Assembly (NCBI RefSeq): GCF_944324745.1
Contig: NZ_CALUXO010000037.1
Span: 1-48,453 of the forward strand
Source of the DNA: an uncultured Thomasclavelia sp.
GTDB lineage: Bacteria; Bacillota_I; Bacilli_A; Erysipelotrichales; Coprobacillaceae
Direction of reading: 5' to 3'
Length of the DNA: 48,453 bases
Part shown: positions 45,161 through 48,453 of the stretch, piece after piece
Position numbering within the stretch: position 1 is the first letter of the stretch
Layout of the letters: each line of letters opens with the position of its first letter
The notes under the pieces: generated by a model
Databases searched by the model: none
What the model saw: only the letters and a program-made list of their open reading frames with translations
Told to the model about the DNA's origin: nothing
Program-made: the position numbers and the translations under genes

Positions 45161-45838
45161 TTAAACCTCAAAAACTCGATTTGACGCAAAGCTATAAAAT
45201 TTATTCCGTCCAATGATCAAATGATCAACTACTTCTATCTCAAGTTTTTTTGCTATATGATAAATTTGCTCAGTTACTTCAATATCTTCTATTGATGGTT
45301 TAGGATTCCCTGAAGGATGATTATGAATGACCATAATGCGACTGCAGCCACAAATCAAAGCCTCTTTAAACAACTCCCGAGCGCTAATTATAGAAATATT
45401 ATTACTGCCAATAAACACGACCTTTTCTCTAACTACCTCCAAATTAGAATTTAAACATAATACTAGTACTTTCTCCTGTTGTTCAAACATCAATTGATTT
45501 TTAACTAGTTCATAGCCATCTTTGGGTTCTTTAATAACAGCCAATGTTTCCGGTTGTTTCTTTAAACGCTTGGTCAGTTCAACGATTGCCAAAACCTCAA
45601 TTGCCTTTGCCTGCTTAATTCCTTTAATACTCGTTAACATCTGGTAAGTTATATTTTTTAAATAACTGAACCCACCGATTTCATTTATGACTCGCTGTGA
45701 TAATTCTATAACCGACTCTTGTTTACTTCCAGTACGTAAAACCAGCGCTAAAAGTTCAACATTAGTTAAACTTTCAACTCCAAAGCGAACAGCTTTTTCC
45801 CGGGGACGTTCTTCTAATGGATAACTGCTAAGTTTCAC
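45161..45838 (-). CDS. radC: RadC/JAMM domain protein
   Basis: 225 residues. An N-terminal helix-hairpin-helix region ('LTSIKGIKQAKAIEVL') precedes a JAMM metal site HNHPSGNPKPSIED (H172, H174, D185). Despite the name, a DNA repair role is not established; it is a putative metallo-hydrolase. It overlaps the SPOR-like gene by 11 bases. Confidence 0.95.
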   Translation of the reverse strand: MKLSSYPLEERPREKAVRFGVESLTNVELLALVLRTGSKQESVIELSQRVINEIGGFSYLKNITYQMLTSIKGIKQAKAIEVLAIVELTKRLKKQPETLAVIKEPKDGYELVKNQLMFEQQEKVLVLCLNSNLEVVREKVVFIGSNNISIISARELFKEALICGCSRIMVIHNHPSGNPKPSIEDIEVTEQIYHIAKKLEIEVVDHLIIGRNKFYSFASNRVFEV

Positions 45839-46217
45839 TTAATCTTGCAACCAATGCCTGATAGTCTTGCTGCTCTACTTTTTCTTTATATTCAGCTTCT
45901 AAACGTACTTGTTTGATCACACAGGTTATTCCATTATTGCTAATATCATTTCCCATATTTTTAGCCTCCTCTTCTGTTAAAAATATTCCTGTAATGACAA
46001 TAAAATTATTATTTTGCTGATATTTATAATTAGCTTTTTGTAATTGGGTCAATTTGGCTACCATCTCATCAGCATTAGCTTCCTCTTCATAATTTCCCAC
46101 TTGAACTATGTAGGCATTAAAATAACTGTTAAAAGTTGAAAAAAATTTCAAATAAACTCCCATAAAGCACATTGATAAAAACACTGCCAGCACGACAACA
46201 ACTCGAATAATCTTCAT
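45828..46217 (-). CDS. Small membrane-anchored SPOR-like protein
   Basis: 129 residues. An N-terminal membrane anchor (VVVVLAVFLSMCFMGVYL) precedes an outside domain reading 'YIVQVGNYEEEANADEMVAKLTQLQKANYKYQ', 'FIVITGIFLTEEEAKNMGNDI' and 'ITCVIKQVRL'. This is the SPOR pattern, which binds denuded glycan strands at the division site. SPOR is assigned by pattern only. The ATG at 46217 follows GGAGGGG. It is co-transcribed with radC and close to the mre/min genes, fitting a wall or division role. Confidence 0.7.
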   Translation of the reverse strand: MKIIRVVVVLAVFLSMCFMGVYLKFFSTFNSYFNAYIVQVGNYEEEANADEMVAKLTQLQKANYKYQQNNNFIVITGIFLTEEEAKNMGNDISNNGITCVIKQVRLEAEYKEKVEQQDYQALVARLSET

Positions 46218-46276
46218 CATCACCCCTCCAAGTAATTTATATGCTGACAGTTTTAAAATATGAATTCTGTTAAAAA

Positions 46277-46414
46277 TTATCTCCTAGTTATAAAACGACT
46301 TCTCATTATCTTAAAAAATCCGGCACCAGCAGCAATAATTATCGAACTGATTACATAAACTAGTGAAGAACCGCCATTTATTTCTTGTTGAACTTGTTTA
46401 CTTAATTCTTTCAT
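46277..46414 (-). CDS. Double-glycine leader peptide B (putative bacteriocin-like or signal peptide)
   Basis: 45 residues. The leader is MKELSKQVQQEINGG, with GG at 14-15, and cleavage would release a 30-residue peptide: a hydrophobic stretch (LVYVISSIIIAAGAGFF) and a basic end (KIMRSRFITRR). Its ATG (46414) is one base after the stop of peptide A, so it is probably translationally coupled; it has no strong ribosome site of its own. A longer frame from 46507 overlaps peptide A in another frame and is not the real gene. No C39-peptidase transporter, immunity gene or kinase is in the window. The double-glycine call is by motif; activity is unknown. Confidence 0.65.
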   Translation of the reverse strand: MKELSKQVQQEINGGSSLVYVISSIIIAAGAGFFKIMRSRFITRR

Positions 46415-46415
46415 C

Positions 46416-46574
46416 TTATCGCCATTCAATCGAAATGATTCTTGGAATCGAAATTCTTCCAGCACTAGATTTATACATCTTATAAACAGCTGTTCCAATA
46501 ACCACAAAGAAAATAACCCCTGCTACGCTACCACCGGTAATATCCATTTGCATTGCCTGTTGTAATTCATTCAT
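46416..46574 (-). CDS. Double-glycine leader peptide A (putative bacteriocin-like or signal peptide)
   Basis: 52 residues, encoded just upstream of peptide B and starting at the ATG at 46574 behind a perfect AGGAGG. The leader is MNELQQAMQMDITGG; it matches peptide B at M1, E3, L4, Q9, I12, G14 and G15, with acidic residues at position 11 in both. The released 37-residue peptide has a hydrophobic stretch (VAGVIFFVVIGTAVY) and a basic region (KMYKSSAGR), then SIPRIISIEWR. The cores also align: G-TAV-YKMYKS against G-AGF-FKIMRS. Two related GG peptides in tandem suggest a two-peptide bacteriocin or paired secreted signals. Too short for ordinary gene calling. Confidence 0.7.
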   Translation of the reverse strand: MNELQQAMQMDITGGSVAGVIFFVVIGTAVYKMYKSSAGRISIPRIISIEWR

Positions 46575-46683
46575 ATTGTTTTCCTCCTGTAATTTATTTA
46601 AAGGTCACACCGTCACTAAACCTTCTACTATACATATACACCTCTAATAATCATTTTTCTTTAACAAAATAAAATTATTTATC

Positions 46684-46715
46684 AAAAAAACAGCAGCTAT
46701 TTTCATAACTGCTGT
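46684..46715 (-). terminator. Terminator of valS
   Basis: ACAGCAG (46690-46696) pairs with CTGCTGT (46709-46715), followed on the minus strand by TTTTTTT. So the peptide pair downstream needs its own promoter, in 46575-46683. Confidence 0.85.
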
Positions 46716-46722
46716 AAAATAA

Positions 46723-48453
46723 TTACATTTGTTCCAACTGTTTCTTTACTGCTTCATATTTAGAAGTATAGTCAGCTAATTTATTTCTTTCCAAATCAAC
46801 TTTTTCTTTAGGCGCTTTAGAAACAAATTTTTCATTAGCTAACATTCCTTGACAACGTTTAATCTCACCTTCAAGTTTCTTTAACTGTTTCGTTAATTTT
46901 TCCTTTTCAGCATCTTTGTCAATATAATCACCTAATTCTACTAATAAAGAATTACCACCTTTAATTGTAATGTTGGCAACTTCGCCTTTAGCTTCAAGAT
47001 TATATCCAGAACATTTAGCATTACATAATTTTTTAATATATGGTAAACATTGATCCATTAAGGCTTCTAATTTACTATCTTTAGCATCGATAATATAAGC
47101 TATTTCAATTTTGTTTTTAATATTATATTGAGTTCTAATTTCTCGAATACCTTTGATAATATCAATTAAATATCTAAACTGGTCATTAATTGTAGCATCA
47201 CTAAATTGTTCATTAACTTGAGGCCAGGCAGCAATACAGATTGATTCTTCTAAATGAGGAATCGCCTGGAAAATTTCCTCAGTTACAAATGGCATAAATG
47301 GATGCAACATCTTAACGATAGCATTTAAAACATAAACCAAAGTATTTAAGCTGGCTTGTTTTTCAATTTCATTATCACTATTTAAATGTACTTTAGTTAA
47401 TTCAATATACCACGAACAGAAATCATCCCAAATGAAGTTATATAATTCATTTCCAACGTTGACAAATTCAAATTTATCCATGTTAGTATCAACTTCTTTA
47501 ATTACTTCATTCAAACGATTTAAAATCCATTTATCACAAAGATTTAAATGATCAAAAGTTAAATCTTCGTATTTCATTTGATCATCGATGTTCATCAAAA
47601 CAAATCGCGCACTATTCCAGATTTTATTGATAAAATTCCATGCCGCATTTAGTTTTTCTGGGCTATAACGTAAATCCATTCCTGGAGCTGAATTAGTTGT
47701 TAAGAAAAATCTTAAAGTATCAGCACCATATTCATCAATAACATCCATTGGATCGACACCATTACCTAATGATTTAGACATCTTCCGTCCTTGTTCGTCT
47801 CTGATCAATCCATGAATCAATACATGTTCAAATGGTCTTTGATCAGTAAAATGTAATGATTGGAAAATCATTCGGCTTACCCAGAAGAAAATAATATCAT
47901 AACCAGTTACTAAAGTATTAGTTGGGAAATAGCGTTTAAACAATTCACTGTCCGTATTTGGCCAACCCATAGTTGAAAATGGCCATAAAGCACTTGAAAA
48001 CCAGGTATCTAAAACATCTTCATCTTGTGTCCAATTCTCAATATCTTCAGGTGCTGTTTTTCCAACATAAACTTCACCAGTTTCTTTATGATACCAGGCC
48101 GGTACTCGATGTCCCCACCATAACTGTCGAGAAATACACCAGTCTTCAACATTTTCCATCCATTGAGTAAATGTTTTTTCAAAACGTTCAGGAACGAATT
48201 TTACTTTTGAATCTTTTAATTGATTTTCTAAGGCTGCTTTAGCTAATGGCTTCATCTTAACAAACCATTGTTTAGATAAATATGGTTCAACAATCGCATT
48301 ACTTCTTTCAGAATGTCCAACTTGATGCATATGTGTTTCAATATGATCAACTACTCCAGCTTTTTCAAAGTCTTCAACTAAGGCTTTACGACATTCGAAG
48401 CGATCCATACCTTGATATTTATGAGCTAGTTCATTCATTGTACCATCATCATT
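46723..48453 (-). CDS. valS: Valyl-tRNA synthetase, N-terminal part outside window
   Basis: The frame is open to the right edge (NDDGT just before MNELA), so about 300 N-terminal residues, with the HIGH motif, are missing. Visible parts are the end of the editing domain ('YQGMDRFECRKALVEDFE', 'ISRQLWWGHRVPAWYH'), 'DEDVLDTWFSSALWPFSTMGWP', the KMSKS motif (GRKMSKSLGNGVDP), the anticodon-binding domain and the C-terminal coiled-coil arm ('LTKQLKKLEGEIKRCQ'...'KKQLEQM'). It charges tRNA-Val. A T-box, if present, would lie outside the window. Confidence 0.98.
   Translation of the reverse strand, partial: NDDGTMNELAHKYQGMDRFECRKALVEDFEKAGVVDHIETHMHQVGHSERSNAIVEPYLSKQWFVKMKPLAKAALENQLKDSKVKFVPERFEKTFTQWMENVEDWCISRQLWWGHRVPAWYHKETGEVYVGKTAPEDIENWTQDEDVLDTWFSSALWPFSTMGWPNTDSELFKRYFPTNTLVTGYDIIFFWVSRMIFQSLHFTDQRPFEHVLIHGLIRDEQGRKMSKSLGNGVDPMDVIDEYGADTLRFFLTTNSAPGMDLRYSPEKLNAAWNFINKIWNSARFVLMNIDDQMKYEDLTFDHLNLCDKWILNRLNEVIKEVDTNMDKFEFVNVGNELYNFIWDDFCSWYIELTKVHLNSDNEIEKQASLNTLVYVLNAIVKMLHPFMPFVTEEIFQAIPHLEESICIAAWPQVNEQFSDATINDQFRYLIDIIKGIREIRTQYNIKNKIEIAYIIDAKDSKLEALMDQCLPYIKKLCNAKCSGYNLEAKGEVANITIKGGNSLLVELGDYIDKDAEKEKLTKQLKKLEGEIKRCQGMLANEKFVSKAPKEKVDLERNKLADYTSKYEAVKKQLEQM

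Follow-up and report, generated by a model that had tools for sequence, protein, structure and literature searches.

The DNA analysed here (the window) is a stretch of 48,453 nucleotides from an uncultured Thomasclavelia sp. (assembly GCF_944324745.1, contig NZ_CALUXO010000037.1, positions 1 to 48,453). Near one end it carries two tiny genes, for what we call peptides A and B, located between valS and the genes for a SPOR-domain protein and RadC. They had been picked out in an earlier note made from the sequence alone, and both were found where it placed them. All features of the locus described below are on the minus strand. Peptide A is a precursor of 52 amino acids (46416..46574) with a double-glycine (GG) leader (residues 1-15, MNELQQAMQMDITGG, 46530..46574), a hydrophobic part (approximately residues 16-33) and a basic tail (residues 34-52). 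Peptide B is a precursor of 45 amino acids (46277..46414) with a 15-residue GG leader (MKELSKQVQQEINGG, 46370..46414). The leaders fit the pattern given in the note, and the cores align with each other as it described (GTAVYKMYKS in A with GAGFFKIMRS in B). The ribosome-binding site AGGAGG was also confirmed, 8 nucleotides ahead of the ATG of A (46583..46588). The TAA of A is followed, after a single base, by the ATG of B, which is internal to a longer open frame. Since B has no ribosome-binding site of its own and starts one base past the stop codon of A, its translation is probably coupled to that of A.

Both open reading frames (ORFs) evolve as coding sequences, A being far more constrained than B. 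Across nine genomes of the genus, in which synonymous sites are near saturation, the ratio of non-synonymous to synonymous differences (pN/pS) is 0.25 for A (0.21 for its tail) and 0.55 for B (0.64 for its core). These codon-like substitutions, and homologues in relatives with GG at the same position, bear out the view that the genes are real. In an alignment of 26 A sequences, the invariant residues are M1, E3, L4, G14 and G15 in the leader, G27 in the hydrophobic part, and S36, G39, R40, E50 and W51 in the tail. The conserved part of the tail (SSAGRISIPRIISIEW, residues 36-51, 46422..46469) is predicted to form a beta hairpin: the AlphaFold2 model of A (mean predicted local distance difference test score, pLDDT, 74) contains a helix at residues 3-35 and strands at 39-43 and 47-51. 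The hydrophobic run is approximately 20 residues long and the tail is net positive. B itself matches the profiles of the peptide family (E = 1.5e-7 and, with the second profile described below, 1.5e-4), another sign that the ORFs are not due to chance. That A and B are a duplicated pair is supported. Known GG peptides have leaders of 15-20 residues that end in GG and carry hydrophobic residues at positions -15, -12, -7 and -4 (PMC7018657). In A and B the GG and positions -15, -12 and -4 fit this rule and are conserved, while position -7 is Gln. No bacteriocin family matched either peptide in NCBIfam (at E 1) or in Pfam.

The pair is flanked by conserved genes. Upstream lies the 3' part of valS (46723..48438; the gene extends past the window), recognised from its ORF and synteny. 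Between valS and A is a terminator-like hairpin (46690..46715) with an 11-pair stem and a T run (shuffled sequences gave 0.1 per region). Its position after valS suggests that A and B are probably a transcription unit of their own; inspection of the sequence upstream of A gave no convincing or conserved promoter match. On the other side are the SPOR-domain gene (45828..46223; Pfam SPOR, 1.2e-10), whose synteny extends to part of the family, and a syntenic ORF (45161..45838) that we take to be radC from recognition of its sequence.

To describe the distribution we use the family labels of the analysis tool (f1 to f25), f1 being the family of the Thomasclavelia genome. E-values are per genome and concern short sequences; starts outside the window were picked by eye with the aid of ribosome-binding sites. 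Among the 60 relatives searched, A is present (E < 1e-5) nearly throughout f1, the exceptions being genomes G016, G017 and G031. Homologues with an identical GG position occur in all 8 other genomes of the genus and in nearly all of the family. Named records carrying A include Thomasclavelia cocleata, T. saccharogumia, Faecalibacillus, Massilimicrobiota and Sharpea, and the nearest named relatives (Thomasclavelia/Erysipelatoclostridium) show 83-87% identity in A. B was found in the 8 other genomes of the genus; most other genera have no B-type partner beside A, and in one genus the peptide is present in three or four tandem copies. Conservation of the valS-radC interval in relatives, a check proposed in the note, was borne out: the order valS-A-radC occurs in 19 genomes (17 other genera), followed by mreC where the stretch reaches that far. 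In G014 the interval is split over two contigs. The apparent absence of the peptide from G017 and G031 was set aside as missing data: no radC was found in either, the transporter described below is cut by a contig end in G017, and G031 is 82% complete. In G016, valS, the SPOR-domain gene and radC are kept and the peptide is missing between them. Additional GG-leader ORFs were seen in two genomes, two with unrelated cores ahead of the family peptide in G010 (L055:4775-5036) and one after it in G020 (L064:5009).

The note had also stated that no transporter is near and that export would depend on a distant system. The first statement holds within the window, but the genome does contain a single full C39 ATP-binding cassette (ABC) transporter, a protein of 683 amino acids encoded on contig C73 (Peptidase_C39, 6e-36; ABC_membrane; ABC_tran), which is a good candidate for that distant system. 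The gene order on C73 is BTAD-type regulator-transporter-ybeY-cdd-era-recO. The transporter lies directly upstream of ybeY in every f1 genome whose stretch includes ybeY, and further upstream most f1 genomes carry dapF, dapH and genes for an M20 peptidase and an aminotransferase. Its best NCBIfam match is NF045998 (the Mbov_0121 family), with 316 bits, below the cut-off of 500. In G016 the protein at the ybeY locus (540 amino acids) retains a C39-like domain, but Cys is missing from the catalytic position and an ATPase domain could not be recognised; judging from these sequences, G016 has lost peptide, catalytic Cys and ATPase together. No immunity, kinase, receptor or regulator gene is conserved across the family beside either the peptide or the transporter locus. 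We found no literature on C39 with ybeY or on GG peptides in Thomasclavelia.

Two other candidates were considered and rejected. A second C39 protein, on contig C76 (L004), belongs to Peptidase_C39_2 and has no ABC domains. As for other GG peptides that might serve as cargo of the transporter, a leader-pattern scan of the whole genome gave short in-frame ORFs for A and B only. The BTAD-type regulator (L003:8754-9941), which has a weak GGDEF-like tail, precedes the transporter here and in two other genomes of the genus; in other relatives this position is occupied by lysine-biosynthesis or other genes. In G014 the C39 transporter is divided between two frames (186 and 480 amino acids; L087:4651-6685) despite the presence of four peptide copies, owing to a frameshift or an assembly error.

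Beyond f1, a profile of the f1 peptides gave weak matches in 18 genomes from other families of the class. All 18 adjoin radC, valS or both, even though the search took no account of position. A second profile, to which these 18 were added, matched 97 of 395 class genomes at E 0.01, the weakest being chance matches and the strong ones including 44 f8 and 8 f19 genomes. In the 29 loci read from this search at least one of the two genes adjoins the peptide (radC in 23, valS in 22). A C39 gene was found in 43 of the 44 f8 and in all 8 f19 genomes with the peptide. Outside f1, 14 C39 loci were read, in 11 of which the gene lies upstream of ybeY. The protein is mostly of approximately 390 amino acids and comprises C39 and hydrophobic segments; the three tested have no ABC domain. 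Some loci encode a stand-alone C39 of 127-170 amino acids. The C39 Cys, His and Asp, judged by eye, are retained in these proteins. In five f2 genomes with no C39 match the peptide is leaderless and starts inside the hydrophobic part. Peptide and C39 gene thus co-occur at two separate fixed loci, and presence of the leader is correlated with that of C39. A different arrangement was observed in f12 (L200-L205), where most loci read show two small genes for GG-leader peptides immediately after the gene for a C39-ABC transporter of approximately 700 amino acids. One f12 GG peptide passes a class IIb bacteriocin cut-off, and cores such as G[IV]IDG..RP..C recur in several genera.

The peptide also reaches two families, f5 and f16, that we call mycoplasma/Spiroplasma families on the basis of genetic code 4, genome size and these gene families. 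Three f16 genomes (in which TGA encodes Trp) match the second profile (E = 3.8e-6, 0.001 and 0.002). With these three included, the profile finds 24 of 26 f16 genomes at E < 0.001, the conserved Trp being mostly TGA; the remaining two have a similar ORF with a weaker E-value. Not all f16 leaders end in GG, several having PG or similar. A third profile matched 51 of 60 f5 genomes. We also compared profiles of the cores only, with leaders removed, using 60 column-shuffled profiles as controls. Scores were 23.0 for f1 against f16 (control maximum 16.5), 37.6 for the wider set against f16 (11.8) and 40.9 for f16 against f5 (15.7). The wider set against f5 gave a marginal 17.8 (15.3), so that the link to f5 depends on f16 as a bridge. 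The f5 gene lies just before rplU in six of seven loci read and between rsmI (named from a TP_methylase match) and rplU in five. In part of f16 it is also just before rplU; in other f16 genomes it follows valS and lspA. The C39 transporter is upstream of ybeY in f5, f16 and f23, and an f16 transporter at the ybeY-era locus (L265) scores 526.5 bits, above the NF045998 cut-off. One f5 genus has, upstream of ybeY, a 619-amino-acid C39 protein (L258:4024-5880) that aligns along the transporter model with no ABC_tran match, possibly a dead ATPase; frames of similar size occupy the same place in L260 and L261. In one f5 genome the family peptide is followed by another ORF with a GG leader, different from it (L248:596-823).

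We therefore favour, with moderate confidence, a reading in which C39 processes the A precursor to a conserved, self-directed membrane micropeptide and A is not a bacteriocin. Taken together, the leader, the transporter, the co-loss in G016 and the existence of leaderless forms speak for leader removal by C39 and for the mature core as the functional unit. We infer that the C39 domain of the C73 transporter recognises the leader and cuts after GG, which would release a product of approximately 37 residues in which a hydrophobic helix precedes a basic hairpin tail. A membrane location is suggested by its hydrophobic run together with the basic tail, and the mature peptide would be exported or released into the membrane to act on the producing cell. 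B would be a faster-evolving duplicate, made with A and processed by the same protease. In lineages with an ATPase-less C39 protein only cutting would remain, and in those lacking C39 the peptide would be encoded directly without its leader. Since C39 persists in lineages that have lost the ATPase, ATP-driven export seems less fundamental than cutting. The peptide is unlikely to serve RadC or wall synthesis alone, because the code 4 families keep it away from radC and the mre genes.

Several observations weigh against this reading. Position -7 is Gln in A and B and hydrophobic in known GG peptides (PMC7018657). Leader and protease do not always go together: a GG leader occurs in G317 without a C39 relative and in G352 with no C39 match, and G330, without C39, has a leader with GR. 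The f12 transporter, which in one locus lies near cdd-era, has class IIb bacteriocin-like peptides encoded beside it, so this type of transporter can serve bacteriocins. In addition, genome counts across families concern related genomes and not independent events.

Among the alternatives, the one that survives best, although we judge it unlikely, is a role for A and B in signalling between cells, as exported pheromones detected either by a receptor encoded elsewhere or once taken up again. Many peptides with GG leaders are pheromones, B changes more rapidly than A, and the gene ahead of the transporter in this genome encodes a BTAD-type regulator. The duplicated secreted signal suggested in the note is conceivable, above all for B, the faster-evolving of the two. 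Pheromones, however, diverge with their receptors, whereas A keeps an invariant tail from genus to genus, and neither locus has a kinase or receptor gene as a constant companion within the family. We consider it improbable that A acts unprocessed as a small membrane protein, with GG incidental and the transporter devoted to other cargo. The hydrophobic run could span a membrane and leaderless relatives exist, but GG and the leader residues are invariant in the transporter-bearing family, mycoplasma relatives also keep a leader, the co-loss in G016 would be left aside and the genome has no other short ORF with the leader pattern. The other proposal of the note, a two-peptide bacteriocin, here taken as class IIb with the C73 transporter as its exporter, is equally improbable and for A was rejected: size, hydrophobic core, basic tail, tandem arrangement and GG leaders fit, as does the f12 precedent, but there is no immunity gene (the neighbours in the window are valS, the SPOR-domain gene and radC, with no conserved extra gene in relatives) and no bacteriocin family match, inheritance at the single core locus is strictly vertical with an invariant C-terminal motif, most other genera have no B-type partner, and leaderless or exporterless forms exist.

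If A is indeed a C39-matured membrane micropeptide, GG peptides would include not only weapons and signals but also conserved core-genome membrane peptides, which are easily missed, being short and unlinked to their protease. For the mycoplasmas, JCVI-syn3A gene 0401 encodes a C39 transporter for which no double-glycine peptide candidate was identified, in agreement with other mycoplasmas, and uptake of lipoyl-lysine has been proposed as another function (PMC6609329). Nearly all sampled genomes of the two code 4 families have a GG-type peptide at a recognisable place, to which A is related; the role of the mycoplasma transporter thus becomes directly testable. The A-type family, which we did not find described in any paper, is a likely cargo of this transporter type, which has no known cargo in mycoplasmas. 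We see about an even chance that Erysipelotrichia, several small-genome families of the class and mycoplasmas inherited one such system, whose peptide and protease genes each have a fixed core locus of their own and whose most conserved step is cutting, not export, and that it supplies the substrate of C39 transporters of the JCVI-syn3A kind.

Compared with known systems, A and B resemble class IIb bacteriocins (lactobin A/cerein 7B and lactococcin G types) as tandem small GG-leader precursors with hydrophobic cores, but differ in lacking a family match or immunity gene, in their vertical inheritance and in the invariant tail. FapD (NF058616), the C39 maturation protease of functional amyloids, is another C39 protease outside an ABC transporter, and mycoplasma C39 proteins match it weakly; here, in contrast, the proposed substrate is a micropeptide and the C39 gene is at ybeY. 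A shares with GG peptides of the ComC/BlpC/RtgG type a leader ending in GG with hydrophobic residues at -15, -12 and -4, a short cargo and a C39-ABC transporter in the genome. Unlike them, it and the transporter occupy separate fixed core loci, the tail is invariant, position -7 is Gln, and relatives occur with an ATPase-less C39 or without a leader. The closest likeness on the transporter side is to the Mbov_0121 family, to which JCVI-syn3A 0401 is likened here by its published description (PMC6609329) and not by sequence: the C73 transporter falls short of the cut-off for membership, but this family is its best NCBIfam match and the f16 transporter at the ybeY-era locus passes.
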